A stretch of DNA of 64,000 nt from the NCBI GenBank assembly GCA_947488755.1, contig CANLAD010000001.1:2799501-2863500 (forward strand). Reading direction: 5' to 3'. A program made the translations under genes and the position numbers. This document shows positions 1 to 42,103 of the stretch, piece after piece. The DNA is from an uncultured Erythrobacter sp. GTDB taxonomy: Bacteria > Pseudomonadota > Alphaproteobacteria > Sphingomonadales > Sphingomonadaceae. Numbering within the stretch: position 1 is the stretch's first letter; every line of letters begins with the position of its first letter. The notes beneath the pieces are model-generated. The model was given only the letters and a program-made list of their open reading frames with translations. It had not been told where the DNA came from and did no database searches.

Positions 1-677
1 TTCCGGCCGATCAGCACGCCGCCCATCGCATCGTCATGACCGCCCAGATATTTCGTCGCCGAATGCACAACCAGATCGGCGCCGAATTCGATCGGACGCT
101 GATTGATCGGCGTGGCAAAGGTGTTGTCGACAACCGCTATGGCGTCGTTGGCGTGGGCGGCTGAAATGGCGCGGGCAAGATCGATGATCTTGAGCATTGG
201 GTTGGTCGGCGTTTCGAGGTAGACGAGCTTGCACCCCTTGGCGATTGCTGCATCGATGGCATCGGCATCGCTGGTTTCCACCAAATCCACCTCGATCCCC
301 ATGCGCGGCAGCACATCCATGAAAATACGGCTTGTTCCGCCATAGCTGTCCTTGATCGACACCACCCGGTCGCCAGGCGACAGCAGGGACAGCAATGTGT
401 TAGAAATCGCTGCCATACCGCTGGCGAAGGCGATTGCTTTTTCGCCGCCTTCTAGAATGCGGCATTTCTCCTCGAACACGCCGACCGTAGGGTTGGTGTT
501 GCGCGAATAGATGTAGCCTTCCGCTTTGCCGAACGCGACATTCGCCCATTCATCGATATCGTCATAGGCAAACGGCGCGCTTTGCACGATCGGCACCTGC
601 GCGGCACCGAAGGCAAGCGGTTTTTCCTCGCCCGCCCATACCGCTTGGGTGGAAATATTCTGGCTGACAATGCTCAT
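1..677 (-). CDS. Cys/Met metabolism PLP-dependent enzyme (cystathionine gamma-synthase/lyase family), 3' end outside window
   Basis: This is a fold-type I PLP enzyme that acts on sulfur amino acids (cystathionine, O-acylhomoserine or methionine). About 225 N-terminal residues lie in the window and the C-terminus is beyond base 1. ATG at 677 begins MSIVSQNISTQAVWAG. Family motifs seen are YSRNTNPTV, ASGMAAIS, YLETPTNP, VDNTFATP and SATKYLGGH, whose lysine (codon 51-53, about residue 209) should form the PLP Schiff base. It lies 54 bp downstream of the cyanophycinase fusion on the same strand, so the two may be co-transcribed. Family assignment is secure; the exact reaction (gamma-synthase, gamma-lyase or methionine gamma-lyase) cannot be decided from this part. 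Confidence 0.88.
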   Translation of the reverse strand, partial: MSIVSQNISTQAVWAGEEKPLAFGAAQVPIVQSAPFAYDDIDEWANVAFGKAEGYIYSRNTNPTVGVFEEKCRILEGGEKAIAFASGMAAISNTLLSLLSPGDRVVSIKDSYGGTSRIFMDVLPRMGIEVDLVETSDADAIDAAIAKGCKLVYLETPTNPMLKIIDLARAISAAHANDAIAVVDNTFATPINQRPIEFGADLVVHSATKYLGGHDDAMGGVLIGR

Positions 678-731
678 TGCGGGGTCCTTTGGAGTTGTCG
701 ATAGTCGTTCTCGGTGCGGATGCGACGTGAA

Positions 732-2678
732 TCATTCGTCGCCGGGGATCGTCTCGTCGGCATAGATCGCGACCTGCGGGTCGTGATCGCTGGAGGCGGA
801 ACCGCGATACATTCCCTCGGTGTTCATGGCGAAAGCTGGCCGGCCATTGCCGTCGATAGCGATCAATCCGCCATCCCCGCCCAGCGCGCCGATTTGACCG
901 ATCGTGTTCACGGCAGCTTCGCCGATCGCCTCGCCATTCCATGCCACGCGGTCGCACACCTGGCGGGCAGCGTTCTCGCGGATGAAATACTCGCCAGTTC
1001 CGGTGCCCGAGACCGCGCAGCGGCCATTTGCCGCATAGGTGCCGGCACCGATAATCGGAGAATCGCCGATGCGGCCCCATCGCTTGCCGGTCAGCCCGCC
1101 GGTCGAGGTGGCTGCAGCTAGGTTTCCGTCACGGTCTAGCGCAACAGCACCTACCGTGCCGAACCGATGCGCGGGATCGATGGCTGCAACATTGCCGGCT
1201 TTCCATTCCAGATGCTGTTGCCAGCGATGTTCGGTTCGGAAATAGAAGGGATCGACCTGTTCGATATCCTGCTCGCGTGCGAACCGGTCCGCACCTTTGC
1301 CGGAGAACATGACGTGCCGGGAATTCTCCATCACTGCGCGAGCGAGGGTGACCGGATGCCGCGTCGTGCCAAGTCCCGCAACCGCGCCGGCCTTCAGGCT
1401 GTCGCCATCCATGATGGAAGCATCGAGCTGATTGCGGCCTTCGGCATCGAATACCGCCCCGCGCCCGGCATTGAACAAGGGATCATCTTCCATCACGCGC
1501 AAGGTCGCTTCGACAGCATCGAGGCTTGTACCCCCAACTCCAAGGACATGTGATCCTGCCTTCAATGCCTGTTGCAGGCTTGAACGATAGGCCTCGTCCA
1601 TTTCAGGCGTCAGGTTCCCGCGCTCGATCACGCCCGATCCGCCATGGATCGCTATCGACCATTGCGGCCCGTCTGAGGGCACGTCGAAAAGTGCGCCTCG
1701 TGTTGTCGTAGCGATGCCCTCGAAAGCGGGATCGGTCACGCTCATATCCTTGAGTTCCAACATGCTGCGCGGACCGATTCCGGTCACCCGTACCGCTTCC
1801 CATTCTAGCGAGCCGTCGGCGGCGAAGCCGGGCATGCCTTCGGGCTGAACCAACCAGGCATGGCCGTCGCTGGTGCTGAACAGCCGCGCGCTGCCATCGG
1901 CATCGATACAAAGAGCGGTATCCTCATCCACCCCAAGCCCGATCGCTTCCTCCATCCCGGAATGGCGTGCCTGGGCTACGAATGCTACCAACCGGCCGAG
2001 GCGATTGCGTTCGGTTAAGTGCGTGTCGGTGATGACCTGCCGCAGGAACGGCATGGCAAGAAAATCGCTCACCAGCGTAACCTTTTCTCCCATCGGATCT
2101 GCCAGCGCTTCCGCCGTGTCCACCGCCTCATGCGCCATCGCGCCGTAACCGGCACCTCCAAGGATCGCGAGGCCGGCGCTGGTGCCTCCAACCGGGCGAC
2201 CCATTTCAACGTGGGTGTTGATCGCTTCGGCAACTGGCGTGTCTTTCCAGAACCGCACATAGTTGGATTGGTCGCCGCCCGCGATGAAGATCCCATCGGC
2301 ATCGCCAAGGATGCCCTGCACCCAAGGATCGAACGCGGCATCGCGCGATGAAAAGACCAGAGTTTGCACGGATTGGATGCCGCCAATATTGTTCAGCAGC
2401 CATTCACCGTCGCTGCCATCCTGCGATGCGCGCAGAATCACTATGTGGCCGTTGCCCGCCTTGCGCGCGAACCAGCGCCAGGCCTCGGGACTCCAGTCCG
2501 ATCCACCGATCAGCATCAGGCCAAGCGAGGTATGGCTCGGCGTATCGGCATCCGGGTTGCCGGCGACATAGTAGGCATAGCCCGCATCCGCCTGAGCGTT
2601 GACGGCCTCGGTAAAGCTTCCTGCGAGACCAGTCAGCAAAAAGGTGAAAACCGAAAGAATGGAAGACTTCCAACGCAT
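732..2678 (-). CDS. Secreted cyanophycinase / isoaspartyl peptidase (asparaginase type 2) fusion protein
   Basis: This 648-residue protein has two catalytic modules. Residues 1 to about 30 are a signal peptide. Residues about 35-330 are a cyanophycinase (S51-type serine hydrolase) domain with GGTSAG (nucleophile Ser167), IAGGDQSN and DTHLTERNRLGRL. Residues about 340-648 are an Ntn-hydrolase isoaspartyl peptidase domain with IHGGSG, LFNAGRGAVF and GTVGAV, in which Thr508 is the expected autoprocessing nucleophile. By family knowledge, cyanophycinase cuts cyanophycin to beta-Asp-Arg dipeptides and isoaspartyl peptidase splits these to Asp and Arg, so one exported polypeptide could do both steps (inference). 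Start chosen at ATG 2678, preceded by AAGGAA and followed by the signal peptide; the frame is open further upstream. It is divergent from the Lrp gene. Confidence 0.85.
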   Translation of the reverse strand: MRWKSSILSVFTFLLTGLAGSFTEAVNAQADAGYAYYVAGNPDADTPSHTSLGLMLIGGSDWSPEAWRWFARKAGNGHIVILRASQDGSDGEWLLNNIGGIQSVQTLVFSSRDAAFDPWVQGILGDADGIFIAGGDQSNYVRFWKDTPVAEAINTHVEMGRPVGGTSAGLAILGGAGYGAMAHEAVDTAEALADPMGEKVTLVSDFLAMPFLRQVITDTHLTERNRLGRLVAFVAQARHSGMEEAIGLGVDEDTALCIDADGSARLFSTSDGHAWLVQPEGMPGFAADGSLEWEAVRVTGIGPRSMLELKDMSVTDPAFEGIATTTRGALFDVPSDGPQWSIAIHGGSGVIERGNLTPEMDEAYRSSLQQALKAGSHVLGVGGTSLDAVEATLRVMEDDPLFNAGRGAVFDAEGRNQLDASIMDGDSLKAGAVAGLGTTRHPVTLARAVMENSRHVMFSGKGADRFAREQDIEQVDPFYFRTEHRWQQHLEWKAGNVAAIDPAHRFGTVGAVALDRDGNLAAATSTGGLTGKRWGRIGDSPIIGAGTYAANGRCAVSGTGTGEYFIRENAARQVCDRVAWNGEAIGEAAVNTIGQIGALGGDGGLIAIDGNGRPAFAMNTEGMYRGSASSDHDPQVAIYADETIPGDE

Positions 2679-2824
2679 ACGGGATTCCTTGTTTTGCAAG
2701 CCCACGGTGGGCGTTCCTCTTCTTTGTTCTGCTGGACAACAGCGTAGGCGACCGTGGCGGTGCATGGCCGCGGATCGGGATCGTTCGATGCGATTAGGCT
2801 TTCTGTAATTTTGCAGATATGTAG

Positions 2825-2838
2825 GACAAATTATCGTC
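2825..2838. promoter_or_regulatory. Degenerate operator-like motif in the cyanophycinase/lrp divergent region
   Basis: The 214-bp gap between the fusion gene and lrp is AT-rich and contains GACAAATTATCGTC, an imperfect palindrome resembling the two stronger palindromes upstream of the TonB receptor (3451-3496). It may be a weaker site for the adjacent Lrp/AsnC protein, controlling both divergent genes. This is motif similarity by eye only. Confidence 0.3.
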
Positions 2839-2892
2839 TTTTTTGAAGCGAAAGCGACAAACTTCTTCGTAAGAATGCGGGAGTGGAGCAGA

Positions 2893-3360
2893 ATGAAGCC
2901 CATAGATGCAACTGACCGGCGGCTGCTGGAGGCAGTGCAGGTGGATGCCCGTCTGACAGCGGATCAACTGGCAGATGCCTGCGGGCTTTCGCCCACCGCT
3001 GCGCTCAAGCGATTGAAACGGCTGCGAGCCGACGGCGTCATAGAACGCGAAGCGGCGATCGTTTCCCCGCGCGCACTCGGCTTCAACATAATGGCGCTCG
3101 TCATGGTCACGCTGGACCGGGAGGACCGCACGGTGATCGACCGGTTCAAGCAGGATATCCGCAGAACCCCTCAGATCACGCAAGGCTTCTACATCACCGG
3201 AGATGCCGACTTCATCATCACGGTCGTGGCCCGAGACATGGACGACTACGAGGAGTTCACGCGTGACTTCTTCTATGACCGACACCCGATCAAGACTTTC
3301 AAGACCTGTGTGGTCATGAGTGTTGTGAAGACTGGCGGAGCGCTTCCGCTGTTCGAATGA
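2893..3360 (+). CDS. Lrp/AsnC family transcriptional regulator
   Basis: This is a 155-residue regulator of the feast/famine family. It has an N-terminal helix-turn-helix (DATDRRLLEAVQVDARLT, then LADACGLSPTAALKRLKRL, residues about 4-50) and a C-terminal RAM/AsnC ligand-binding domain with ITGDADFIITVVARDMDDY. Start ATG 2893 begins MKPIDATDRR; an in-frame ATG at 2875 adds six residues but has no better ribosome site. It sits between a secreted cyanophycinase/isoaspartyl peptidase gene (divergent) and a TonB receptor plus peptidase (same direction), so it probably senses an amino acid released by these enzymes and controls the island (inference). Candidate operators are at 3451-3496. Confidence 0.9.
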   Translation: MKPIDATDRRLLEAVQVDARLTADQLADACGLSPTAALKRLKRLRADGVIEREAAIVSPRALGFNIMALVMVTLDREDRTVIDRFKQDIRRTPQITQGFYITGDADFIITVVARDMDDYEEFTRDFFYDRHPIKTFKTCVVMSVVKTGGALPLFE

Positions 3361-3450
3361 GGCTGCCTCCTTGACCCATGCGCGTACCATTCCGTTCTGT
3401 GCGATGCTGATCCCGTGACGCAGTTTTTTCGTCGTATAGTTCGTTAATAT

Positions 3451-3496
3451 CGACAATATCTGTCGTTTACACGCAGAAATTCGACAAAATATCGAA
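3451..3496. promoter_or_regulatory. Two palindromes upstream of the TonB receptor, candidate Lrp operators
   Basis: CGACA-ATATC-TGTCG (3451-3465) is a perfect 5-bp inverted repeat and TTCGA-CAAAATA-TCGAA (3480-3496) is another. Their centres are 30 bp apart, about three helical turns, in an AT-rich 330-bp gap between lrp and the TonB receptor. Lrp/AsnC proteins usually bind several phased palindromes. The TTCGA...TCGAA arms recur upstream of the second Lrp gene (61415-61435). The rest of 3361-3689 shows no convincing gene. Confidence 0.5.
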
Positions 3497-3689
3497 GCCT
3501 GCGCGCCTATAGTCGGTTGATGGCGGTAGCGAGGCTTGTGGAACACAGCCTTATCGCTCGCCTGGCCGAGGTGACCAGCATTGCAACGGAAGCCCGGAGA
3601 GGGCCGCCGACAGGATCACAGCCGTTGTCCCACGTGGGCTTCCGGCATCATTCGCATGGACGCCGAGCGTGTCCGAAGGGGGGGAATTG

Positions 3690-6551
3690 ATGCGCCATTT
3701 GATCGCCGCCGCCGCATTAACCGGAACGAGCATGCTGGCGGCCACCAGCGCCGCCCAATCGCAGGACCGGCAGGAACCGGATGAACCGGAGGAAACCGTC
3801 ACACCGCGACAGACGGAAGAAGAGGACCGCATTCTCGTGCTGGGCTCTCGCATTCCTCGTTCGCAGATCGAGGGTCCAGCCCCGATCACGGTAATCGATT
3901 CCGAAGATATTCTGCGCCAGGGTTATCAAGACGTTGGCGAGTTGATGGCTTCGGTCACGCAAAACAACGGCGAAACGCAGTCGACACAAAGTTTCGGCGC
4001 CAACACGTTTACGCCCGGTGCCCAGCAGGTCGATCTGCGCGGGCTCGGGCCGAACCATACACTGGTTCTGCTCAATGGCCGCCGCATCGCCGATTTCCCG
4101 ATGCCTTATGGTGGCAACACCAATGTCGCGGATATTTCGTCCATTCCGATCGGGTTGATCGAACGGGTGGAGATTCTGAGCGGCGCCGCCTCGGCTATCT
4201 ATGGATCGGACGCGATTTCGGGTGTCGTGAACTTCCAGCTCAAACAGAAGCCCGACGGAACGCGCATAGATGTGCAGGGCGGGCTGACCGAAGGCGGCGG
4301 TGGGGAGCGCTTCCGCATCACCGGCACGACCGGCTTTGAATCAGGCGGCTTTCGCCTCCTGGTCGGCGCGCAATATGAAAAGCAGATGCCGCTCTGGGGC
4401 TTCGAGCGGGAGTTACAAGATTCGACTGAAGACAATCCGACAACGAATGTGCCGCTCGCCACCCGCAATATCCTGCGATACGATTCGGGCGCCTACTACA
4501 TTGATCCGGGAGAGAATGCCTGCGCCAATGCCAGCTTCACCAATGAAGGCACAACGTTCTATGCACCACGTGCCGGCTTCGGCTTCGATGTCGACAATGG
4601 CTACGCTGCGACCGACGGATATTTCTGCGGTTCGAACAGGGCGATTTCCTACGGTCACATCATATCTGAGCGCGACCAGGCCACTATCTACGCAAGCGCA
4701 AATTACGAGATTTCGAACAATGCCGAACTGTTCCTCGATGCGCAGTACGGCTATTCCGAGCTGGAGCTCTTTAATGGGTTCAAGACTTGGTACTACGTCG
4801 CCCCGGACGGGAACGAAGAGGGACTGTTCTACAACCCAGACAACCTCGATCCGATCGACACCTACTGGCTCGACCAGCTTGACGGTTGGCAGCGCATCTT
4901 CACGCCTGAGGAAGTCGGCGGATTCGACAATGGGATGATCCGCAACCGATCGCACACATACAACATCACGCCCGGCATTCGCGGCAGTTTCGGTGATGAG
5001 CGCGTCTGGGATTACGAGGTCTTTTACAACCACGCGGGTTACCGCTCGCGCATGGCGTGGCCAGAAATAGTGATCGAGGCGGGCAACGATTTCTTCCTCG
5101 GCCAGCCGGTCGACAATCCGGACAATGATAGCGGCTACCAGCAATTCGATGCCGATCCGCAGCGGCTGTTCACGCCGCTGACGCCGGAAGAATATGCAAC
5201 TATTCAGGAATACACCGTCTACCATCCGGCGAGCTGGGTGAATAATGTCCAAGCCAGTATCAGCACGGCCGACCTGTTCGATCTTCCCGCAGGACCGGTT
5301 GGCTTTGCTGCGGTAATCGAAGGCGGCAATGCGGGCTACGACGTAAATCCGGATCCCAAAGCGTTGACGCAATATTATGTCGGCATCCGCGATTCCGATG
5401 GTAGCGGTACTCGCGACCATTGGGGTGCAGGCGCCGAGGTGCGCATACCGGTCTTCGACATCCTCAATGTCACAGCGGCGGGCCGGTACGACCATTTCAA
5501 TTATGCCGGGAACGGCTTTGGCGAATTCACTTATAATCTCGGGGTCGAATTCCGGCCCATTCGCGAATTGCTTTTTCGCGGCGCAATCGGCACGGGCTTT
5601 CGCGCGCCAGACCTGCATTATGTCTATCGCGGTCCAGGCACGGTCAATTCAGGTGGTGCGGACTACTACAATTGCCGCCTAGAACAGACCGATCCCTCGC
5701 TCGCCGATTGTGTGAACACCAGATTCGAAAGTTTTATCGGGGAACGCAGCGGCAACCGGAATCTGCTACCCGAAACCGCCGAGTCCATCACTGCTGGTTT
5801 TGTCTTCGCGCCCAGCTCCAATTTCGATCTCTCGGTCGACTATTTCCGCGTGACGATGGAAGACCAGGTGCTTAATCTCAACATTAACAGCCTGCTGATC
5901 GACGAGGCGAATTGTCGCTTGGGCACCGATTTCGCAGGCAACGCAGTCGATGCCTCCACGCCGACCTGCGTCGATGCGCTAGAACGCGTGCAACGGTTTG
6001 AAAGCGGTGCCTCCGCGGGGGAGTTGCGACTGGTGAACGTGGTGCCGATCAACGTGGCGGAGGAGATGACCGATGGTATCGACGTCGCCCTCAATGGGCG
6101 ACTCTCTCTTGGCCAATCGGGCGACCTTGCCGTGGGTGCCAGCTACACCTATGTCTTCAATCACGATATTCAGCAATATCCGGGCGATCCTGTGCTGAAT
6201 AAGTTCGTGCCGATCAATGGCTATGAAATTCCGCGCGACAAAGGCAAAGCATACGTCACTTACAGCTACGATGCCTTCACCACCACGCTGACCGGAATTC
6301 GCTTCGGCCCGATGACCAATTGGAACTGGGACGACAAGATCGACGAAAGCTATTGGTTCAACCTGTCGGCTCAGTACGACGCGACGGACCGCATCCGTTT
6401 GTCTGTTACGATCAACAATCTGTTCGACCGTGATCCGGTGGAAGACCCGACCCACGCCAGCTATCCCTATTACAACAGTTCGTGGTTCGATTCCGTTGGC
6501 CGGCGTTTCTTCTTGCAAGTGTCGTACAAGATCGGCGGAAGCAGCTTGTAA
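3690..6551 (+). CDS. TonB-dependent outer-membrane receptor
   Basis: This 953-residue protein has a signal peptide (MRHLIAAAALTGTSMLAA, cleavage near AQS-QD), an N-terminal plug domain (ILVLGSRIPRSQIEG, then VDLRGLGPNHTLVLLNGRR and ERVEILSGAASAIYGSDAI, residues about 40-190) and a long beta-barrel ending in an outer-membrane sorting segment (RFFLQVSYKIGG). Start ATG 3690 follows the purine run AAGGGGGGG with 5-nt spacing and is better than the in-frame GTG at 3669. Such receptors use TonB-ExbBD energy to import large substrates. Its position between a peptide-degradation regulator and a C69 peptidase suggests a peptide or polypeptide ligand (inference). A translated short gap separates it from the peptidase, likely one operon. 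Confidence 0.93.
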   Translation: MRHLIAAAALTGTSMLAATSAAQSQDRQEPDEPEETVTPRQTEEEDRILVLGSRIPRSQIEGPAPITVIDSEDILRQGYQDVGELMASVTQNNGETQSTQSFGANTFTPGAQQVDLRGLGPNHTLVLLNGRRIADFPMPYGGNTNVADISSIPIGLIERVEILSGAASAIYGSDAISGVVNFQLKQKPDGTRIDVQGGLTEGGGGERFRITGTTGFESGGFRLLVGAQYEKQMPLWGFERELQDSTEDNPTTNVPLATRNILRYDSGAYYIDPGENACANASFTNEGTTFYAPRAGFGFDVDNGYAATDGYFCGSNRAISYGHIISERDQATIYASANYEISNNAELFLDAQYGYSELELFNGFKTWYYVAPDGNEEGLFYNPDNLDPIDTYWLDQLDGWQRIFTPEEVGGFDNGMIRNRSHTYNITPGIRGSFGDERVWDYEVFYNHAGYRSRMAWPEIVIEAGNDFFLGQPVDNPDNDSGYQQFDADPQRLFTPLTPEEYATIQEYTVYHPASWVNNVQASISTADLFDLPAGPVGFAAVIEGGNAGYDVNPDPKALTQYYVGIRDSDGSGTRDHWGAGAEVRIPVFDILNVTAAGRYDHFNYAGNGFGEFTYNLGVEFRPIRELLFRGAIGTGFRAPDLHYVYRGPGTVNSGGADYYNCRLEQTDPSLADCVNTRFESFIGERSGNRNLLPETAESITAGFVFAPSSNFDLSVDYFRVTMEDQVLNLNINSLLIDEANCRLGTDFAGNAVDASTPTCVDALERVQRFESGASAGELRLVNVVPINVAEEMTDGIDVALNGRLSLGQSGDLAVGASYTYVFNHDIQQYPGDPVLNKFVPINGYEIPRDKGKAYVTYSYDAFTTTLTGIRFGPMTNWNWDDKIDESYWFNLSAQYDATDRIRLSVTINNLFDRDPVEDPTHASYPYYNSSWFDSVGRRFFLQVSYKIGGSSL

Positions 6552-6623
6552 GGAGCCGCACGCCGCGTCACAGCAACCTGATCTGGCGCACGGCAACAGG
6601 AGGAAACGATTTCGAGCCATGGA

Positions 6624-8168
6624 GTGATAGCCCGACACCTTCAGATCGCCCGCACGGCGTTTGCAGCGCTGGTTATCGGCGTCCTGCTTGCTACCGGGAC
6701 GGCACAAGCAAGCTATGCCTTTTACGTTGGCAGAGAGCTTACCGAAGATGGGAGCGTCATGGTGGCCGGAGCTGGCGAAGAGGTGTCGAGCCACTGGTTG
6801 GAAATCGTGCCCGCCCGCGATCATCCGGACGGCGCGACGGTAATCGTAGGAGTAACGCAGGATGCTGGCATTCCCGGGGAACTGATCGAAATCCCGCAAG
6901 TGGCGCGCACTTTCCGCTACGTGCACATGGCGTATACCAATTTCGAAGGCTTCCCCCCTCCGCTGACCAATGGCGGCGTGAACGAACATCAAGTCGCGGT
7001 GCGCGATGTGTGGGCGCCGAGCCGCCAAGAGCTGGTCGACATGACGCCCGTACCGCAACACGGTCTGCACTACTCGGACCTTGCCCGCCTAGTGATGGAA
7101 CGCGCTCGCACTGCGCGCGAAGGGGTAGAACTGATCGGCGAGCTTATCGGTCGGCACGGCTTTGCTACCTACGGGGGCAACTCACATCTGATCGCCGATC
7201 CGCACGAGGGCTGGATTGTGTGGGAATTCGCGGGCGGCCAAGGCCTTTGGATTGCGGAACGGCTCGGCGCGGACGAAGTTCGCGTGCTCTATCCCGGCGG
7301 CATTGGCGACATTCCGATAGATATTGAAGGCAGTCCGGATTTTGTTGCCTCGGATAACTTCATCTCGTTCGCTGTCGAGCAAGGCTGGTACGATCCTGCC
7401 TCTTTAGAGCCGTTCAATGTACAGCATGTCTACGGTGACCAGTCCATTCGGGATTACCGCGACCCGGCCATAAAGTTGATGAGTCCTGCAGCGCTCGAGG
7501 CTGCGACACTGGCGATGGTGCCGGTTAGCGAAGCGGAACTGATGGCGCGCGTGCGCGATCCCCGCGTCGTTGATGACGATGCCGGCTACGGACAGGTAGT
7601 AAGCCTCAAGGCCGGGCTTCCCGATCCGAATCTCATTCGCATATGGAACGCGCCGACCGGATCTGTCACTGCCCCATTCAATGTGTGGTGGCTTGGTGCG
7701 ACAAAAGTGCCCATGGAATACGCGCAGCATCGCTATCTCACCAAGGATTCGGCTTCCACTTTTCTCCACCCTGACTTCCAAATGCAGGAAGCCACTTTGT
7801 TTGCCGGGCGCGTGTTCAAACGCGTGATGTACTACGCCTGCTCGGACCCGGATCGTCTCTTGCCGATGGTCACCGATGCCTTGGAGGGTTTCGAAGCTGG
7901 CACACGCGTTGACATTGGCTGGGTGGAAAGCAGCGCCGAAACTTTGCTTCGCGAGGGCAAAGTAGAGGAAGCGCGTGCTTTGCTGACCTATTATTCAAGC
8001 AGCCGCGCAATGGATGCGCTGAGCCTCGGCAACGATATGGCCAACTGGCTGAATGCCTACACAAGTCTGACGCGGCCCGAGCACTTTCCTGAGGGGCGAA
8101 CCATCAATACGATGGACCCCACGATCAACTGCCTCGCAATCGGTGATCCTGACCATTCCCCCATGTAA
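6624..8168 (+). CDS. C69-family dipeptidase-like secreted Ntn hydrolase with N-terminal Ser
   Basis: This 514-residue exported protein resembles the C69 dipeptidase/secernin family. Residues 1-29 are a signal peptide ending AQA. The mature protein would start SYAFYVGRELTEDGS; the family normally has Cys here as the N-terminal nucleophile (CTT..VGK..T.DGS), so Ser30 would be the nucleophile after signal cleavage. Other family features are GGNSHLIADPHEGWIVWE and a C-terminal half with helix-rich segments. The start is GTG 6624 preceded by GGAGGAAA. An out-of-frame ATGGAGTGA at 6619 overlaps the start. It is 72 bp behind the TonB receptor and is probably co-transcribed, cleaving imported peptides in the periplasm (inference). 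Confidence 0.82.
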   Translation: MIARHLQIARTAFAALVIGVLLATGTAQASYAFYVGRELTEDGSVMVAGAGEEVSSHWLEIVPARDHPDGATVIVGVTQDAGIPGELIEIPQVARTFRYVHMAYTNFEGFPPPLTNGGVNEHQVAVRDVWAPSRQELVDMTPVPQHGLHYSDLARLVMERARTAREGVELIGELIGRHGFATYGGNSHLIADPHEGWIVWEFAGGQGLWIAERLGADEVRVLYPGGIGDIPIDIEGSPDFVASDNFISFAVEQGWYDPASLEPFNVQHVYGDQSIRDYRDPAIKLMSPAALEAATLAMVPVSEAELMARVRDPRVVDDDAGYGQVVSLKAGLPDPNLIRIWNAPTGSVTAPFNVWWLGATKVPMEYAQHRYLTKDSASTFLHPDFQMQEATLFAGRVFKRVMYYACSDPDRLLPMVTDALEGFEAGTRVDIGWVESSAETLLREGKVEEARALLTYYSSSRAMDALSLGNDMANWLNAYTSLTRPEHFPEGRTINTMDPTINCLAIGDPDHSPM

Positions 8169-8232
8169 TGGACTCTATGTGAAGGACTGCATCGAACCAT
8201 GATCCGTCGTTCGCGGACTATCTGTTATCAGC

Positions 8233-9049
8233 CTAGGTTTCGCGGACAAAGGAAATCCAGAGTTTGACTGAGGCGAGGGCGACGAAGCCGAGATAGGATT
8301 CCTTGGTTTTATCGTAGCGGGTTGCAACGCGCCGCCAGTTCTTCATTTGTTGAACAGGCGTTCGATCAGATTGCGCCATCTGTATTTCGTTCGGTCGTGC
8401 GGGTCGGGATTGCGCCGCTAAGCCTTGGCCGGGATCGCCGCCTCGACGCCTGCCGCTTCGATCTGTTCGCGGATCGCATTGGCATCGTATCCCCGATCAG
8501 GCAGGAAGGTCTCAATCCGACCGGTTATCAAGCGGAACAGCGGAGCGAAGCCCTGCACATCGTGCGTCTGTCCCGGTATCACCACGAAGCCGAGCGGAAG
8601 ACCTCTGACATCGCATCGGGCATAGAGCTTGGTGGGGAAGCTGCCGCGCGACCTGCCGAGCGCCTCAGTTTGCTCAGTCCTCTTTTTATGCCGAGGGTGC
8701 AATGATGTGCCCGGACCACCACCGTGCTGTCGATCATGTCGGCAGCAGTGTCCAGTCTTGCCAGTTCTGCCAGCCTCTCGAGCATGGCGTCAAACACGCC
8801 GGTCGTGACCCATCGTCGATAGCGCCGGAAGACGCTGTTTCACTTACCATACTCATCCGGCAGGTGTTGCCACTGCGCGCTGGTCCGCGCGATCCACACC
8901 ATACCCTCGAAATACGGGCGGTTATCCTGTGCGGGACGGCATCCACGACCCTGCTCAGGCGGCAGCAATGGCCCGATCACTTCCCATTCTTCGTCTGATG
9001 CACCAATTCGCTCGCCCAAGGTTGCTTCCAAAGGACAGCCTTGAATCAA
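8233..9049 (-). pseudogene. IS5-family transposase, multiply disrupted
   Basis: Reading the minus strand from 9049, fragments with IS5 similarity are ASDEEWEVIGPLLPPEQGRG and FEGMVWIARTSAQWQHLPDE. Then comes an in-frame TGA at 8842-8840 where TGG (Trp) is expected, followed by VFRRYRRWVTTGVFDAMLE, DMIDSTVVVRAHH, a one-base deletion near 8690, PLGFVVIPGQTHDVQG and FLPDRGYDANAIREQ, a TAG at 8420-8418, RWRNLIERLFNK, a second one-base deletion near 8347, and finally KNWRRVATRYDKTKESYLGF to FVRET and stop at 8233. Four lesions make it certain that it encodes no transposase. Confidence 0.85.
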
Positions 9050-9088
9050 GGTCCGAGTCCCCGGTCAAGCTTTGTCCACGAAGCCTGG
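8233..9088 (-). mobile_element. IS5-family insertion sequence remnant
   Basis: The element is about 856 bp. Its ends are inverted repeats: CTAGGTTTCGCGGACAAAG at 8233-8251 and CTTTGTCCACGAAGCCTGG at 9070-9088, 16 of 19 positions matching when one is reversed. The left repeat contains the transposase stop codon. The interior encodes an IS5-type DDE transposase on the minus strand that is broken at four places. No target duplication was identified. It separates the peptide-catabolic island from the PQQ dehydrogenase. Confidence 0.75.
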
Positions 9089-9395
9089 TTCCTACCTTTC
9101 TGCTCCGCGCAGAAGGCTGGTATTTAGGCCCACTTCCGAATAATTTTTAAGCTTTGATGACAGAGGTGCGGCGGGAGTGTCGGATCTAGTCGGCCCATGC
9201 CACCTTGTGTCCTTTCTACCTCCGTAACCGATGTCGGCCAAGAAGAATGCCGCTAATCTACTCACGGCGCTCTCCGAGTTCTCAATACCAATTCCTAAGT
9301 TGGCGTTGCGCCCATCACGCTATCCGGAGGTCGCACAGGTCCAGCGGCATTCTCACAAACCGCAAACCAATTTTGAATTCGTCGCGCCAAACTCG
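9089..9395. other. Intergenic region, no gene seen
   Basis: About 300 bp between the IS5 remnant and the 3' end of the PQQ dehydrogenase. Short ORFs here have no family signature or convincing ribosome site. I see no RNA gene or clear terminator. Confidence 0.5.
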
Positions 9396-11348
9396 TCATT
9401 GGTCGCGATCTAAATTGAGACGGTATGCGACGACGTAATCTCCCATTTCACCGTCCGCCTTCTGGCCGCCTAGGGTGAGCGCCACATAAGCCTCACCCTC
9501 CCATTTGTAGATCATCGGTGTGGCTTGCGGCCCGGCAGGGAGCTGCGTGCTCCATACCACTTTCCCATCGCGCTGATCATAGGCGCGCAGCATCCGGTCA
9601 TATTGCGTCGCCATGAACGCGAGACCACCTGAAGTCAGAACCGGCCCGCCATTTGCGACGTATCCCCAATCTGCAGCTTGATGATCATCGCCGATCCCCG
9701 GGCGGCGTCCGGCGGGGACCTCCCAGAGTTTCTCACCGGTGGCAAGGTTGACCGCGACAAGCGTCGACCACGGCCCTTCGAGGCAATGGAAGCCGCTTTC
9801 ATTGTTGAACAGTTCGAACCGGGCCATCCCGTAAGGTGTCCCGCTCTGCGACGTGAATTGCGCCTCGACTCCGTTCAGGATTTCGTCCCGCCGAAGTTTT
9901 CGAAACTCATTGCGGGGGATCAGCTTCACGACCGTCGGCAGACGGTTTACTGCGACAACGGCAATCGCTTCTGCTTCATCTGCAGCCATGGATCCCCAGT
10001 TCACGCCTCCAGGATTGCCCGGGAACAAGACAGTCCCTTCGAGGCTGGGCGGAGTGAAGATACCTTCATAGCGGGCGCCTGCGATCATCTCCTCGCATCG
10101 TGCGACGTGGTCATCGTTAACGGCAAAGATCGGCGGCAGATCGTCTGCCACTTCGTGCAGCTGAATCGCGGGAAAGCGCTGGGTCTGCGCGGCCGTCTCG
10201 CCTGGCACGTCGGAACGTGGAACTTGCCTTTCCTCGACAGGATGGACCGGCTCGCCCGTTTCCCGATTCAGGACGAAAACAAATCCCATCTTGGTTGCCT
10301 GGGCGACAATTGGAGTCGACACTCCTTCGATCTTGATGTCAGCAACAAGCGGCTGCGAGGCCAGATCATAGTCCCACAGGTCATGGCGAACGATCTGATA
10401 GGCCCAGACAAGCTCACCGGTTGTAGCTTTTAGCGCAACGAGGGAATTTGCATGAAGATTGTCGCCGGGGCGGCTTCCTCCAAAGAAGTCGGGGGAAGGA
10501 GAAGTGGTCGGCAGGAAGATGAGATCACGCTGTGGATCAGCAGCCATGACACTCCAGACATTGGCGGCGCCCGTCTGCCGGTAGCTCTTCTCAGGCCATG
10601 TCTCTGCGCCGTCATCCTCCGGGCCTTGCGGGATTGGATTGAAAGACCAGAGTAGCTCTCCCGTGAGCGCGTCAAAACCTCGGACCGTGCCATCCTCAAG
10701 CCGCGCAGAGCCGTTGTCACCAATCGATGACCCCACCACCACGACGCCGTTGACCACGGTTGGCGGCGAGGTGACGGAATACTCTCCCCGGCGCACCCGG
10801 CGGATCCGCGATGTTAGATCCACTTCGCCGCTCTCGCCAAATTCGGCGCAGCGCGATCCGTCCTCTGCATCTATGGCAATAAGCCTTGCATCAAGCGTGC
10901 CAAGCAAAATGCGTAAACGGCAGGGTGTTCCCGCAGCTACGTTCGCATCTACAAAGGCCGCAACGCCGCGCGACGTGAACATCTCGGAATACTCAATGTC
11001 GAAGTCTACTTCGGGATCAAAGCGCCAGACCTGTGCGCCCGTGCCCGGATCAAGCGCAATCACGCCGTTGAATGGAGTGGACACGATAAGGCTGCCGCCC
11101 ACAAGGATCGGGGTGCTCTTGAATGAAGATGTTCGTCCAAAATAGCCTTCGCCACTGGCAGTGTCGCCGGTTTCAAACCGCCAGGCTTCTTCAAGACGAT
11201 CGGCCGCTTCGGCATTGAGAGCCGGAACCTTAGCGAACCGTTGGCCTCCGACATCGCCGCCCCAGTGCGACCAGTCTTGAGCTGCCACACAGACCGGAAG
11301 CGCGGCGAGCAACGCGCAGATTAAAATCGGTTTGCCGGGCACATTCAT
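9396..11348 (-). CDS. Periplasmic PQQ-dependent (quinoprotein) dehydrogenase
   Basis: This 650-residue beta-propeller enzyme oxidises an alcohol or sugar using pyrroloquinoline quinone. A signal peptide (MNVPGKPILICALLAALPVCVAA) precedes repeated PQQ-propeller blades with tryptophan-docking motifs such as VIALDPGTGAQVWRFDP, VRGFDALTGELLWSFNP, LVALKATTGELVWAYQ and LVAVNLATGEKLWEVPA. HDLWDYDLASQPLV resembles soluble and membrane glucose dehydrogenases (GCD-type). There is no CxxCH haem motif and no N-terminal membrane bundle, so electrons must go to a separate acceptor. The start is ATG 11348, for which GGAG lies 6 nt upstream; an in-frame ATG at 11360 is the alternative. No PQQ biosynthesis genes are in the window. 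The substrate cannot be inferred. Confidence 0.88.
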   Translation of the reverse strand: MNVPGKPILICALLAALPVCVAAQDWSHWGGDVGGQRFAKVPALNAEAADRLEEAWRFETGDTASGEGYFGRTSSFKSTPILVGGSLIVSTPFNGVIALDPGTGAQVWRFDPEVDFDIEYSEMFTSRGVAAFVDANVAAGTPCRLRILLGTLDARLIAIDAEDGSRCAEFGESGEVDLTSRIRRVRRGEYSVTSPPTVVNGVVVVGSSIGDNGSARLEDGTVRGFDALTGELLWSFNPIPQGPEDDGAETWPEKSYRQTGAANVWSVMAADPQRDLIFLPTTSPSPDFFGGSRPGDNLHANSLVALKATTGELVWAYQIVRHDLWDYDLASQPLVADIKIEGVSTPIVAQATKMGFVFVLNRETGEPVHPVEERQVPRSDVPGETAAQTQRFPAIQLHEVADDLPPIFAVNDDHVARCEEMIAGARYEGIFTPPSLEGTVLFPGNPGGVNWGSMAADEAEAIAVVAVNRLPTVVKLIPRNEFRKLRRDEILNGVEAQFTSQSGTPYGMARFELFNNESGFHCLEGPWSTLVAVNLATGEKLWEVPAGRRPGIGDDHQAADWGYVANGGPVLTSGGLAFMATQYDRMLRAYDQRDGKVVWSTQLPAGPQATPMIYKWEGEAYVALTLGGQKADGEMGDYVVAYRLNLDRDQ

Positions 11349-11408
11349 AATGGACTCCATTCGACAACTTGTAGCAAAATGAGGGACTGTGGGTTGCATT
11401 TCCTGAAA

Positions 11409-12899
11409 TCAAACATCGTTGCTTTGCTCCGCACCTCGCGCTTTGCGTCTGCGAAACGCGAGAATCCCAAAACCAATCAGCGCGGCCAGACAAAGCCATG
11501 CGAACAGGTCGCCGACATATCGCTGCAATGTTGGCCGAGCGGACAGGTCAAACGAAGCCAGCAGGGCGCTTTCCTTGCTGGCAAAGCTGTCCAGGCTGGC
11601 CTCAATTTCGCCTTGCGGCGAGATCACGGCCGACAGGCCATTTGCGGCGGGGCGAAGCACGGGAACACCGGTTTCAATGGCCCTGAAAGCCGTCATTTCA
11701 GCATGCATGGGGGTTATTTCCGCCCAATCATTGGATGGGACGACAAGTAAATCTGCACCTGCATTTGCCGCTTTGCGGGCTGGCGCTGTAAAGTCGGCAT
11801 CGAAGCAGATGATCGCAGCGATCGTTCCATAGGTCGTATCGAAGAGTAAAGGTCGACCATCGCCCGCGATTATAGGCTCGCCCGGCACCGGTCGGGCCTT
11901 GAGGTAGGCCTCGCTCCGCCGCCCATCAGGCGCGAACATGATGACCTTGTTCTGAAGCAAGCCTTCTTCGGCTCCGTCAGGAAGCGCGAGAAGCCCGGCA
12001 ACGAGATAGATGCCGCGATCGGCGGCAAATTGCGAAGCCCGGTCCAGCAACACGTTTTCGAACCCGGCTTGATAAACGGCAGCCCCTTCGTGCCATGCTA
12101 TGATCTTCGCTCCTTCTGTCGCTAGCGCATCGGAGCGCGCAAACAGTGGGTCGTTGTATTGTTCATCGAGGACTGCTTGTCGGCATACAACGTCGTTCGC
12201 CGGGCATTGGCCGTAATCAGGCCTGTCAATGCGGCCTCCAATCAGGCCTGCGATTACAGTTTGATTTGTTTTCGACCAGTTTGTCCCGCTGACAGCGCCG
12301 TGGCCGATCACAGCGGCGAGGACAGCCGCAAATGCGATAGCTGACTTCTGCTTTAGCGGGGGACGGAAACCGCGTTCGGCCCACTGATTGACGACAGCAG
12401 CGAACCAGGGAGGCAGGAAAGCGATGCCCCAGATGCCTGCGATCGATGCAAACCGGGAAAGCCATGGGAGGTCATATTGGACGTACGCATCACTGGCCCA
12501 GGTGCCGAATGGCGCGCCTAGGGAGCCGATGAGCAGAGCGGTTACGGTTGCGGCGGGGAAAATGAGTGTCGCAGCGATCCCCGACAGCCTGGGTGATATC
12601 AGCCGGTCGGCGAGATAGACGATTGACGTCATGACGCCGGCTGCGATCGCGACTGCGAACAGTTCATTTCGATCACCTGGAATGACGCCCTGGAATGCAA
12701 ACCAGGTCGCGCAGCCAGCGACCAGACCAATGAGCGGGATGCCAAGCCAGGGACGCGTGCTGCGCGAAAAGCGCAAGAGAAAGACCGGCGCCAGCCAGGC
12801 GGCAAAAACATTGGCTGCGATACCGTTGGAAAAATAGAAATTAACCCCGCCAATTGCTAGGCAAAGGATCGCCAGCAACGGCGAGGTGATTTTGGTCAT
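11409..12899 (-). CDS. Apolipoprotein N-acyltransferase-like membrane protein (nitrilase superfamily)
   Basis: This 496-residue protein has about six N-terminal hydrophobic segments (to about residue 200), a periplasmic carbon-nitrogen hydrolase domain and one C-terminal membrane segment followed by RRRKARG, the Lnt layout. The nitrilase triad is visible: Glu in IIAWHEGA, Lys in YLKARPVPGE, and Cys in IICFDADF. Lnt transfers an acyl chain to the N-terminal Cys of lipoproteins. This copy is next to a PadR regulator, not in the usual corC/lnt context, so it is probably a paralogue with a specialised role (inference). The start ATG 12899 lies only 12 nt from the 44-bp palindrome, with GGAAGAG as ribosome site. 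Confidence 0.82.
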   Translation of the reverse strand: MTKITSPLLAILCLAIGGVNFYFSNGIAANVFAAWLAPVFLLRFSRSTRPWLGIPLIGLVAGCATWFAFQGVIPGDRNELFAVAIAAGVMTSIVYLADRLISPRLSGIAATLIFPAATVTALLIGSLGAPFGTWASDAYVQYDLPWLSRFASIAGIWGIAFLPPWFAAVVNQWAERGFRPPLKQKSAIAFAAVLAAVIGHGAVSGTNWSKTNQTVIAGLIGGRIDRPDYGQCPANDVVCRQAVLDEQYNDPLFARSDALATEGAKIIAWHEGAAVYQAGFENVLLDRASQFAADRGIYLVAGLLALPDGAEEGLLQNKVIMFAPDGRRSEAYLKARPVPGEPIIAGDGRPLLFDTTYGTIAAIICFDADFTAPARKAANAGADLLVVPSNDWAEITPMHAEMTAFRAIETGVPVLRPAANGLSAVISPQGEIEASLDSFASKESALLASFDLSARPTLQRYVGDLFAWLCLAALIGFGILAFRRRKARGAEQSNDV

Positions 12900-39000: not shown

Positions 39001-40047
39001 ATGTCCCTTCTCGAAGCCCGCAACACCTACAAGCCGTTCGAATACCCCTGGGCCTATGAATTCTGGAAGCGCCAGCAGCAGATCCACTGGATGCCGGAGG
39101 AAGTGCCGCTGGGCGAGGATTGCCGCGACTGGGCGCAGAAGATCACCGAGCACGAGCGCAACCTGCTCACCCAAATCTTCCGCTTCTTCACCCAGGCCGA
39201 TGTCGAGGTGCAGGATTGCTACCACGACAAGTATGGCCGCGTGTTCAAGCCGACCGAGATCAAGATGATGCTCACCGCCTTTTCCAACATGGAGACGGTG
39301 CACATCGCGGCCTACAGCCACCTGCTCGACACGATCGGCATGCCCGAAAGCGAATATTCCGCCTTCATGGAATACGAGGAGATGGCGGACAAGCACAATT
39401 ACATGCAGCAATTCGGCGTCGACAATGACGAGGATATCGCCCGCACGCTCGCCATGTTCGGCGGCTTTACCGAAGGGCTGCAGCTGTTCGCCAGCTTCGC
39501 CATGCTGATGAACTTCCCGCGCTTCAACAAGATGAAGGGCATGGGCCAGATCGTCAGCTGGTCGGTGCGCGATGAAAGCCTGCACTGCGAAGGCATCGTC
39601 AAGATGTTCCACACCTTCTGCGAGGAGCGCGACTGCCTGACCAAGGCGGTGAAGGAGGACATCATCGACATCTGCCAGAAGACCGTGCGGCTGGAGGACG
39701 CCTTCATCGATCTCGCGTTCGAACAGGGCCCGGTGAACGGGATGACGGCGAAGGAGATCAAGAAGTATATCCGCTACATCGCCGACTGGCGCCTCAACCA
39801 GCTCGGCCTCACGCCGATCTACATGGTCGAGGAACACCCCCTCCCCTGGCTCGCCCCGCTGCTGAACGGCGTGGAGCACGCCAACTTCTTCGAAACCCGC
39901 GCAACGGAATATTCGAAGGGCGCGACGACCGGCAACTGGAACGACGTGTGGTCCAGCTTCGACAAGCGCCAGAAGGCCAAGCTGCCGGGCGAGGAAGTCG
40001 CGGTGAACGACGGGCCGGATATGTTCGGGGTTGAGGCGGCGGAGTAA
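39001..40047 (+). CDS. nrdB: Ribonucleoside-diphosphate reductase beta subunit (class Ia)
   Basis: This 348-residue ferritin-like subunit houses the di-iron/tyrosyl radical cofactor. Metal and radical residues are seen in FFTQADVEVQDCY (Asp/Glu), METVHIAAYSHLL (Glu, His and the radical Tyr in ExxHxxxY), FGGFTEGLQLF and SVRDESLHCEG (Glu and His). Length is normal and there is no N-terminal ATP-cone. The start is ATG 39001. NrdR-like boxes lie upstream, and a foreign-looking gene starts 3 bp after the stop codon. Confidence 0.97.
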   Translation: MSLLEARNTYKPFEYPWAYEFWKRQQQIHWMPEEVPLGEDCRDWAQKITEHERNLLTQIFRFFTQADVEVQDCYHDKYGRVFKPTEIKMMLTAFSNMETVHIAAYSHLLDTIGMPESEYSAFMEYEEMADKHNYMQQFGVDNDEDIARTLAMFGGFTEGLQLFASFAMLMNFPRFNKMKGMGQIVSWSVRDESLHCEGIVKMFHTFCEERDCLTKAVKEDIIDICQKTVRLEDAFIDLAFEQGPVNGMTAKEIKKYIRYIADWRLNQLGLTPIYMVEEHPLPWLAPLLNGVEHANFFETRATEYSKGATTGNWNDVWSSFDKRQKAKLPGEEVAVNDGPDMFGVEAAE

Positions 40048-40050
40048 AAC

Positions 40051-41325
40051 TTGGCTGAACCGTATAATCCGCTCAAAGATCATCCAATTCATGAAACACT
40101 GAAGGGGCTGCTAGGACTTGAGGGGCGAAAAGAGCTTGATCAGGGCCACTATGGCTTAAAGCCGGTCCATGTACACGCGCTTGGGCGAATCTTTTCAGTC
40201 GCGCATAACGCAAAGCTCGTCCTGAAAAAGGTCGATGTCTCTGATATCGACATAAATGCTGCGAATGATCTCAACACAGGACTAAGCAAAGCACACAACG
40301 AGCTTAATGCATTTGTTTCGAATGGAAACGCGACACATGTCGATACCGCTCGAAACCACGTTAACGGAACCGCTGCGCCGCAACTTCAACGACTGCTTCC
40401 TATTGGATTTGAGGTACATCCGAAAACTGAGACTGCATTAGAGTCCTACAAAGCTAAGGCGAGGAAAGCTAATCAAGACTTCCAACGATCGGCAAAGGCA
40501 AACCGGGAGCAGATTTCTAAGCTTGAGGGAAAGGTTGAATCCGAAGCGCAAAGGCTTTCCGAGCTATCTTCGCTAATTGATGCTCGGAAGGCTGACATCG
40601 ACAAGACCGTCTCGGAACTTCGAGAAGCCGATATCGAACGCGTCGAGCGGCAGTCTAAGGAGATGCGTGAGTCCATCGAGCAAAATGAAAAATCGTTAAC
40701 GGAGTTTCTCGACAAAAACCGATCCAAAGTCATCAACGCGATCGAACAGTTTGAGCGGGACTCTCAAGCGCTTACGCAAGAGTTGAAGAGCCGGAGAGAT
40801 GAGGCCCGACGAATAGTACAGTCTGTCGGAGACTTGTTAACCACCGGGACATACGCCGATCGCGCAACGAAAGAGACTGAAAAAGCAGATTTTTTTCGAT
40901 ATCTTACTGTCGGACTATTTTCATTTGGTCTTTTAATTATTGTTTCGAATTACCTTATTTACGCTTTCGGTGCTGCTTTCGGTAGTCCAGTCGAGTTGGC
41001 AGAATCATGGCAGGCTTTGAGCGCGCGAGTAATTACAGGCGCGGCGGTGACTTTGCCTGCGTTCTACACGGCTAGAGAATCCGCGCGTCACCGGACCAAT
41101 GCAGACATAGCAAAGCAAAGGGAACTTGAACTTACTACGCTCGGGCCGTTCATTGAATTGCTTCCCGATGAGCAGAAATCAGCGATCCGAGATCGATTGA
41201 CCGATAGGTATTTCGGAAGTGAGGTCGACCCTCACGATGTCAAAGCGCCAATTGATGCGGACCTGTTAGCCAAAGCTTTGCTCGATATTTCCCGCAAATC
41301 TAACGGTGATATTGCTCAAACATAA
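40051..41325 (+). CDS. Coiled-coil membrane protein of unknown function, probably acquired
   Basis: This 424-residue protein starts at TTG 40051 with GGAG (inside the nrdB end) 6 nt upstream. Residues about 140-265 form long heptad-rich coiled coils (KLEGKVESEAQRLSELSSLI, SIEQNEKSLTEFLDKNRSKV). Two hydrophobic segments follow (YLTVGLFSFGLLIIVSNYLI and WQALSARVITGAAVTLPAFY). The C-terminal cytosolic part has ARESARHRTNADIAKQRELE, PFIELLPDEQKSAIRDRLTD and RYFG. The DNA is clearly more AT-rich than its neighbours, with poly-T runs near 40890. I infer horizontal acquisition; a sensor, envelope or conflict role is possible but not shown. Confidence 0.75.
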   Translation: MAEPYNPLKDHPIHETLKGLLGLEGRKELDQGHYGLKPVHVHALGRIFSVAHNAKLVLKKVDVSDIDINAANDLNTGLSKAHNELNAFVSNGNATHVDTARNHVNGTAAPQLQRLLPIGFEVHPKTETALESYKAKARKANQDFQRSAKANREQISKLEGKVESEAQRLSELSSLIDARKADIDKTVSELREADIERVERQSKEMRESIEQNEKSLTEFLDKNRSKVINAIEQFERDSQALTQELKSRRDEARRIVQSVGDLLTTGTYADRATKETEKADFFRYLTVGLFSFGLLIIVSNYLIYAFGAAFGSPVELAESWQALSARVITGAAVTLPAFYTARESARHRTNADIAKQRELELTTLGPFIELLPDEQKSAIRDRLTDRYFGSEVDPHDVKAPIDADLLAKALLDISRKSNGDIAQT

Positions 41326-41371
41326 TTCTACTATTTCAGCTCAAGCTCATTGTTCGCCGACTAAGCCAAGC

Positions 41372-41405
41372 GAAGCGGGATCCCGGATCAGGTCCGGGAT
41401 GACGA
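41372..41405. repeat. REP-like palindromic repeat
   Basis: ATCCCGGA-TCAGG-TCCGGGAT (within GCGGGATCCCGGATCAGGTC and continuing CGGGATGACGATG) is an 8-bp palindrome of a type dispersed between genes in sphingomonads. It lies behind the coiled-coil gene and may mark the right end of the acquired segment or simply form a terminator. Confidence 0.6.
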
Positions 41406-41602
41406 TGGGTGCTTTCGGATGGAGCGGTGCATCACCTTCCCGCGCCATCCACTTGTCGCCCACCGCATCCCGCTCCGGCGCACCGACCGCCTCCCGCCGA
41501 ATGGCAGACACGAAAACCGACTCAATGGTTTGAACCATAACCCTTTCTTCACCCAAATCATCGAATCTCTCGCTCGGGATTTTCGGGAAGGGGTTCGCGT
41601 TC

Positions 41603-42103
41603 ATGTTCTTCGCAAAGGCGCTCGGCGCATGTTTGCTGGCGGTGTTTGGCGGGTTCTGGTTTGCGGGAGCCTTCGATTCGCCAGCGGAGCGCGAGGCGAG
41701 CGCTCTCAATCTCGTTCGCCAGGCCGAGCTGGCCGACAATGCCCGCGCCGATTCGCAATGGGGTCCGGAATGCAATGCCTTGCGCGACAAGCTTTTGGGG
41801 ATGGAAGGCGGCTTGCCCATCGGCATCGCATCAGACAACCCGTTCGAGGGGATCGCAAAGCTGCAGAAGGCCGAACGCAAGCTGCGGGCGGCAGGCTGCG
41901 ATATCGACAAGGCACCGGGAGCCTTCAGCCCGTTCGAACCTGGCAAGGGCAACTTCAAGACCGTCACGACCGAAATGGACGGCGGCCCAAAGGGCGCAGG
42001 CGGCTGGGGCGATAGCGGCAGCGTGAACACCGGCGGAGGCTGGGGCGGCGATTCCAACGTCGCCAACGAAGGCGGATCGGACGACTGGGGCACCGGGGAA
42101 TAG
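41603..42103 (+). CDS. Hypothetical membrane-anchored Gly-rich protein
   Basis: This 166-residue protein has an N-terminal hydrophobic segment (MFFAKALGACLLAVFGGFWF), a helical region with two cysteines (GPECNALRDK, AAGCDIDKAPGAF), and a Gly/Asp/Trp-rich tail (GGWGDSGSVNTGGGWGGD). No family is recognised. It may be exported. The preceding 270 bp contains the REP-like repeat and no clear gene. Confidence 0.55.
   Translation: MFFAKALGACLLAVFGGFWFAGAFDSPAEREASALNLVRQAELADNARADSQWGPECNALRDKLLGMEGGLPIGIASDNPFEGIAKLQKAERKLRAAGCDIDKAPGAFSPFEPGKGNFKTVTTEMDGGPKGAGGWGDSGSVNTGGGWGGDSNVANEGGSDDWGTGE

Follow-up and report, generated by a model that had tools for sequence, protein, structure and literature searches.

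What does the gene island at the start of this stretch of DNA break down? The stretch, 64,000 nucleotides from an uncultured Erythrobacter sp. (assembly GCA_947488755.1, contig CANLAD010000001.1, positions 2799501-2863500) and referred to as a whole as the window, carries in its first 8.2 kb five genes that a preliminary description had read as a system for using cyanophycin or isoaspartyl peptides. It named a secreted cyanophycinase/isoaspartyl peptidase fusion, a TonB receptor, a C69-type peptidase, an Lrp regulator and a pyridoxal phosphate (PLP) enzyme, and all five genes were located as described, every one with Pfam profile matches. The fusion and then the PLP gene lie on the minus strand, with divergent Lrp, receptor and C69-like genes on the plus strand. 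Isoaspartyl-peptide utilization is the best reading of this arrangement, because two beta-aspartyl-type enzymes are fused behind a signal peptide beside a TonB receptor. Stated in full, we give an even chance to the proposal that the island is transferable, regulated by amino acids and used to scavenge peptides with beta-aspartyl (isoaspartyl) links, as judged from sequence comparison. The features are as follows.

1..677, minus strand: Cys/Met metabolism PLP enzyme, represented by the first 225 of its 406 residues (PF01053, 3e-74)
732..2678, minus strand: secreted fusion of a signal peptide, an S51 (cyanophycinase-like) domain, a beta-rich linker and an IaaA-type isoaspartyl peptidase (PF03575, 2.1e-9; PF01112, 5.1e-103)
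732..1661, minus strand: IaaA (Asparaginase_2) half of the fusion (PF01112, 344.9 bits, residues 415-714)
1896..2321, minus strand: S51 core of the fusion (PF03575, best stretch residues 195-336, and alignments)
2855..2869: weaker half-matching site with 3 mismatches, immediately 5' of the Lrp gene
2875..3360, plus strand: Lrp/AsnC-type regulator (PF01037, PF13412)
3451..3465: operator-like palindrome CGACAATATCTGTCG between the Lrp and receptor genes
3669..6551, plus strand: TonB-dependent outer-membrane receptor (PF07715, PF00593; alternative start ATG 3690)
6624..8168, plus strand: secreted C69-like hydrolase (PF03577, 8.5e-20)

The open reading frame (ORF) of the fusion was listed from 2903 (723-amino-acid translation), and the ATG at 2678 gives a protein of 648 amino acids. 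We place the start at the latter, since it is followed by a signal peptide and preceded by AAGGAA, which resembles a ribosome site. The PLP gene runs past the window edge and was recovered whole (L113:13958-15178, 406 amino acids).

Conservation of the island in other genomes

Lack of conserved neighbors around the fusion had been named beforehand as a refuting point; compared across loci, the neighbors are conserved and the idea survived. A scan of GTDB with the fusion as query gave 203 relatives, the top 80 of which were retained. The best nine matches were full-length fusions (L033-L041), and the set also held a gene truncated at the end of its contig (L044) and an S51 domain alone (L079). 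Five of these 11 other S51 loci, from Euryhalocaulis, Pacificimonas, two Citromicrobium and an Erythrobacter metagenome-assembled genome, hold the identical five genes in identical order, so the five-gene cluster exceeds chance. We refer to the window and these five loci with the complete order as type A. An ortholog of the PLP gene was found in 5/11, as was an Lrp ortholog at the window's position. The type A sequences form a single S51 clade in the tree (six rows, support 100/100), within which the two from Citromicrobium are near-identical (branches 0.015 and 0.022) and thus come close to one observation. Type A was found across Maricaulaceae, Sphingosinicellaceae, Erythrobacteraceae and Sphingomonadaceae, a spread that fits horizontal transfer.

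A wider core emerged with the S51 domain alone as query, which matched 13 of 396 genomes in Sphingomonadales, the order to which the window belongs (E 1e-20), and, in the phylum at large, 11 of 398 (E 1e-15), the window's own genome being counted in each. The 33 loci compared below comprise the window, 11 from the GTDB scan, 12 from the order search and 9 from the phylum search; the last matched ten other genomes, one of them in two places, and two weak rows (L161, L162) were set aside. These two have weaker S51 matches (37% and 32%) with differing flanks and a differing active-site motif, L161 deviating at position 173 and both at the end of the Arg motif. Two loci with IaaA and no S51 match (L042, L043) also stand outside the 33. 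A receptor homolog adjoins S51 in 29/33 loci. S51 and IaaA are fused in 20/33, the cut gene of L044 included, and neighboring genes in 7/33; the fused count is inflated, as it was the fusion that served as query for L033-L041, L044 and L079; L129-L140 and L152-L160 came from searches with S51 alone. On the tree, with the outgroup omitted and 11 of 31 inner branches well supported, the fused state needs six changes, which implies repeated gain or loss of the fusion. A gene of the Lrp family adjoins in 18 loci, of the window's type in 6 and of a different, LysM-like Lrp subfamily in 12; the latter sits directly behind S51 or the fusion, or in L159 behind the separate IaaA (profiles of two were checked). 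The themes that recur across loci are therefore receptor, S51, IaaA and regulator.

Within the genus, the fusion was matched somehow in 107 of 114 genomes, nearly always through its IaaA half, and there was no further full-length fusion among the matches listed. The flanking genes are sporadic as well, with the left neighbor in 2/114 (E 1e-30) and the pyrroloquinoline quinone (PQQ) enzyme in 6/114 (E 1e-100), own genome included. Rare in the order and flanked by sporadic genes, the island is accessory DNA.

Several loci have neighbors of their own. In L153, which belongs to a different class of the phylum, an extracytoplasmic function (ECF) sigma factor and FecR lie between receptor and S51 (10149-11866), which may indicate receptor-driven signaling in place of Lrp; L158 has similar-sized ORFs at the same place. 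In L131 (6492-10323) an S51 gene of the island clade comes directly after genes for an Amidohydro_3 protein and an alanine racemase, with neither receptor nor IaaA found near S51, a faint hint of peptides with D- or iso-amino acids. An IS4/5-family transposase gene directly adjoins S51 in L132 (10588-11469), close to the contig end. In the window, the right flank of the island is a PQQ-type dehydrogenase gene (9396-11399). Farther along, G+C falls to 0.53 at 40001-42000 compared with 0.63-0.64 in neighboring 2-kb blocks, which suggests another foreign segment.

The fused enzyme

The S51 domain of the fusion scored 92.4 bits in one search and 94.6 in another, below the cyanophycinase cut-off of 126.6 (TIGR02069). 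Its sequence matched the cyanophycinase 3EN0 (Synechocystis CphB) with an E of 6.5e-13 and peptidase E with only 0.004. In the structure model of the fusion (mean predicted local distance difference test, pLDDT, 61.9) the S51 part is good and the IaaA part poor, and the S51 part fits the cyanophycinase structures 3EN0, 7UQV and 7UQW with target template modeling (TM) scores of 0.73-0.79 (0.75-0.79 for 3EN0 and 7UQV).

Alignment in 3EN0 numbering separates what is kept from what is changed. Ser132, His174 and Glu201, which we take to be the catalytic residues of cyanophycinase, are kept in 33/33 island sequences, as are Gln101, Asp172, Arg178, Arg180 and Arg183, which together with Gln173 reportedly line the pocket in a 2009 study of CphB. 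Three positions are changed in all 33: Ile/Leu104 to Tyr, Ala135 to Leu, and Gln173 to Thr (28) or Ser (5). The window's S51 core (1896..2321) holds equivalents of Gln101, Ser132, Asp172, His174, Arg178, Arg180 and Arg183, with Thr in place of Gln173. Island S51 and CphB thus have in common the fold, the catalytic residues and five of the six presumed pocket residues, and differ in Thr at 173, Leu at 135 and Tyr at 104, at 20-21% identity. Our 11 comparison rows were eight genes of the genus that exceed the cyanophycinase cut-off, the broken gene L180, and the PDB chains 3EN0 and 7UQV. Among them Gln173 is present in 10/11, Ala135 in 10/11 (Gly in L179) and Ile or Leu at 104 in 10/11 (Arg in the broken row). 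L179 exceeds the cut-off yet has none of Gln173, Asp172, Arg180 and Arg183, whereas 7UQV, titled pseudo-CphB, retains Gln173. Since a pseudo-CphB keeps this Gln, residue 173 marks the clade better than it marks activity.

The C-terminal half aligns with E. coli IaaA (EcAIII, 2ZAK) across residues 417-716 of the 723-residue translation, and residue 583 of that translation, the catalytic Thr, corresponds to the start of the beta chain in solved IaaA enzymes. Thr508, Thr526, Arg536, Asp539, Thr559 and Gly560 (648-residue numbering), which we take to be the IaaA catalytic Thr with its pocket, are invariant in 15 aligned fusions. Unlike the E. coli enzyme that it resembles, the window's version is secreted and joined to S51, and its 287.5 bits fall short of the 567 set as cut-off for the PRK10226 equivalog.

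IaaA also occurs by itself. In L042 (9911-10951) an unfused IaaA, with what looks like a signal peptide, adjoins efflux-pump-like genes with no S51, and L043 is similar; both are 70-71% identical to the IaaA half of the fusion and are possible break-up products of it. The window's own genome carries a second IaaA-like gene (L114, G000:C1:1937869-1938603), 56% identical over residues 412-656.

Proposed pathway

Cyanophycinase takes off a C-terminal unit of Asp and Arg joined via the Asp side chain, which in chemical terms is an isoaspartate (isoAsp)-Arg end, and a relative whose pocket has changed could cleave isoAsp-X from other peptides. In the proposed pathway, the TonB receptor would import peptides left by ordinary peptidases into the periplasm. 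There the S51 half would remove a C-terminal isoAsp-X, as cyanophycinase does with beta-Asp-Arg, and the IaaA half would hydrolyze isoAsp-X to Asp and X. The C69-like enzyme may trim further peptides, and the PLP enzyme may act in the cytoplasm on an amino acid so released. The Lrp-type protein would respond to such an amino acid by switching the two divergent operons. What the comparison itself shows is which genes are there, their order and conservation, and the residues of the active sites; periplasmic location, substrate, direction of transport, sequence of cleavages, regulation and the parts played by the C69-like and PLP enzymes are inferred.

Regulator, C69-like and PLP enzymes

The operator-like palindromes of the preliminary description were borne out in part. 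In the window as in L033, L034, L036 and L037, a 15-bp palindrome occupies the same position in the gap separating the Lrp gene from the receptor gene, with 0-1 mismatch to CGACANAATNTGTCG, so the site at 3451-3465 recurs in 4/4 other type A islands scanned (L035, close to L036, was omitted). The 2855-2869 site has weak counterparts in L034, L036 and L037 and none in L033. Taken alone the window's palindrome pattern is weak, with 7 matches where 3.45 are expected and 4 of 100 shuffles as high. The islands hold 3-7 sites each (at most 3 mismatches) compared with shuffled means of 0.9-1.4 (30 mononucleotide shuffles each), the totals of L036 and L037 not rising above the highest shuffle. The pattern was drawn from an alignment of these very regions, so the result is support rather than proof.

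Enzymes known as C69 dipeptidases use an N-terminal Cys nucleophile. In the C69-like protein a Ser comes right after the likely signal-peptide site (AQA|SYA), in 6/6 orthologs, and because it stands at the place of the Cys nucleophile the enzyme may be a Ser-type N-terminal nucleophile (Ntn) hydrolase variant of the family. The expected place of the Cys follows from the general features of the family and from motif spacing; a search for a canonical C69 to compare matched two of 21 genomes, one match being the window's own copy and the other weak. The protein scored 71.5 bits, over the Pfam cut-off of 23, and 69.2 against NF033678, below the cut-off of 250; its structure model was uninformative (pLDDT 36.6).

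The full PLP protein scored 616.8 bits against NF006097 (cut-off 600), a family without a stated reaction and the only one over its cut-off among the 25 of 45 matching families listed. Methionine gamma-lyase was rejected (406 bits against the TIGR01328 cut-off of 549.7). We also considered canavanine gamma-lyase as a possible role, this being a PLP gamma-lyase; parts of PMC10018355 give no sequence for it, and no such molecule name appears among the 60 of 81 PDB matches listed. A PLP-family match in L160 (39%) was not counted, as it belongs to the O-acetylhomoserine family.

Cyanophycin and other candidate substrates

The strongest alternative, which we consider possible but doubtful, is a cyanophycin utilization locus, whose receptor would import soluble fragments from dead cyanobacteria and whose fusion would degrade them fully to Asp and Arg. 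The S51 domain is nearest to cyanophycinases, and five of the six presumed pocket residues are kept. The fused pair is the exact two-step pathway set out in parts of Sharon and Schmeing (2023; PMC10206079), which report gene clusters pairing cyanophycinase with isoaspartyl dipeptidases and mention a cyanophycin utilization locus. A cyanophycin role was also proposed in print, in a section of Tang et al. (2012; PMC3400609), for a receptor encoded near a cyanophycinase in Citromicrobium sp. JLT1363. Locus L036 is from that strain and carries a type A island, and we infer that the receptor of the 2012 paper is the one in this island.

Against cyanophycin stand the S51 score below cut-off and the changes at 173, 135 and 104 in every island sequence. 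Neither the cut-off nor Gln173 proves activity, because the pseudo-CphB 7UQV has Gln173 and L179 exceeds the cut-off without the pocket residues. Cyanophycin is disfavored mainly because the genus has a cyanophycin-type locus built differently from the island. Eight of 114 genus genomes have a cyanophycinase over the cut-off that the window's domain does not reach, and we compared these eight loci and the broken L180. In 6/9 the order is receptor, YfcC-type antiporter, cyanophycinase, IaaA (L115 at 3327-9491, L174, L175, L177, L178, L180); L173 has IaaA alone beside the cyanophycinase, and L176 and L179 have none of receptor, antiporter or IaaA by these queries. The antiporter matches the basic-amino-acid antiporter YfcC in NCBIfam (540.7, over 500) and the C4-dicarboxylate carrier DcuC in Pfam; since the names differ, it could serve Arg or Asp. 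No homolog of it was detected in the 33 island stretches (0/33; E 1e-8, stretch lengths varying, first 16 kb for the window). Receptor, S51 and IaaA stand together in both kinds of locus, but those of the genus have separate genes, a DQH motif and the antiporter, and relative to the window's the receptor of L115 is 25% identical and the IaaA 39-41%. The isoaspartyl part of the earlier proposal is accordingly supported, by the fused pair and the receptor, whereas its cyanophycin part is weakened by the score, the three fixed changes and the separate loci of the genus.

The island resembles the cyanophycin utilization loci described in portions of PMC3400609 and PMC10206079 (which cites Ben Hania et al.) in its adjoining S51, isoaspartyl dipeptidase and transporter and in having no cyanophycin synthetase. 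It differs in its fused enzyme, the three fixed changes in the active-site region, the Lrp-type regulator, the C69-like and PLP enzymes of type A, and the absence of a YfcC-type antiporter. The preliminary description knew of no such described system, and for the fusion this stands: our literature search found no S51-IaaA fusion described, and the main text of PMC10206079 has none of the words fusion, fused or TonB. It does not stand for the neighborhood, since the adjacency of receptor and cyanophycinase, the nearest precedent, was reported in 2012, in a section of PMC3400609.

A general periplasmic cleaner of aspartyl dipeptides, with S51 acting like peptidase E on alpha-Asp-X and IaaA acting on beta-Asp-X for amino-acid recycling, is improbable: peptidase E has the same fold, and IaaA enzymes are described in parts of PMC10206079 as promiscuous even within cyanophycin clusters, but the peptidase E match is far weaker than that to 3EN0 and the cyanophycinase pocket residues are mostly kept. 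Degradation of side-chain-linked (omega-amide) peptide natural products, such as cyanobacterial microviridin-like peptides with Asp-Lys links, is slightly more improbable. A TonB receptor with a beta-aspartyl-cleaving enzyme would suit the uptake of a compact peptide, but there is no sign of such a product, and besides the type A C69-like gene no recurring extra peptidase was seen by crude ORF clustering.

Weighing the isoaspartyl reading

The scavenging of isoaspartyl peptides gains from the result for cyanophycin synthetase (cphA1), which was over its cut-off in 0/14 genomes tested. Several points weigh the other way. To our knowledge, no activity is known for any member. The 2009 study of CphB reportedly gave Gln173 and its neighbors a role and found Gln173 functionally critical; Tyr104 and Leu135 are without an assigned role. 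No IaaA was found nearby in 6/33 loci, and a receptor beside S51 is missing in 4/33, not being found in L040, L131 and L140, while the contig of L152 ends 1 kb from where this locus starts. The window's island has the S51/IaaA pair and the outer-membrane receptor, but an inner-membrane transporter was not seen in it, nor was one seen to recur across loci by crude ORF clustering. Among the 33 loci, the C69-like gene and the window's PLP family were found only in the type A clade, so both stand outside our definition of the core. Finally, given the promiscuity of IaaA described in parts of PMC10206079, its presence tells little about X.

Implications for isoaspartyl peptides in dissolved organic matter

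Tentatively, and with less confidence than in the scavenging of isoaspartyl peptides as such, we suggest that the S51 clade with Tyr104, Leu135 and Thr/Ser173 may have moved from cyanophycin to the isoAsp-X ends of aged or deamidated peptides, making the island a dedicated system for their uptake and degradation, in which the S51 enzyme is joined to an isoaspartyl dipeptidase and has a TonB receptor and an Lrp switch of its own. Our literature search found no dedicated bacterial uptake-and-degradation system for isoaspartate-damaged peptides. Isoaspartate arises spontaneously in aging protein and blocks ordinary peptidases, and isoaspartyl peptides should therefore accumulate in dissolved organic matter. 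Annotations of "cyanophycinase" in heterotrophs may cover a sister clade with another substrate, possibly including the gene behind the 2012 receptor assignment. A dedicated uptake system, if true, would give the isoaspartyl peptides of dissolved organic matter a fate.

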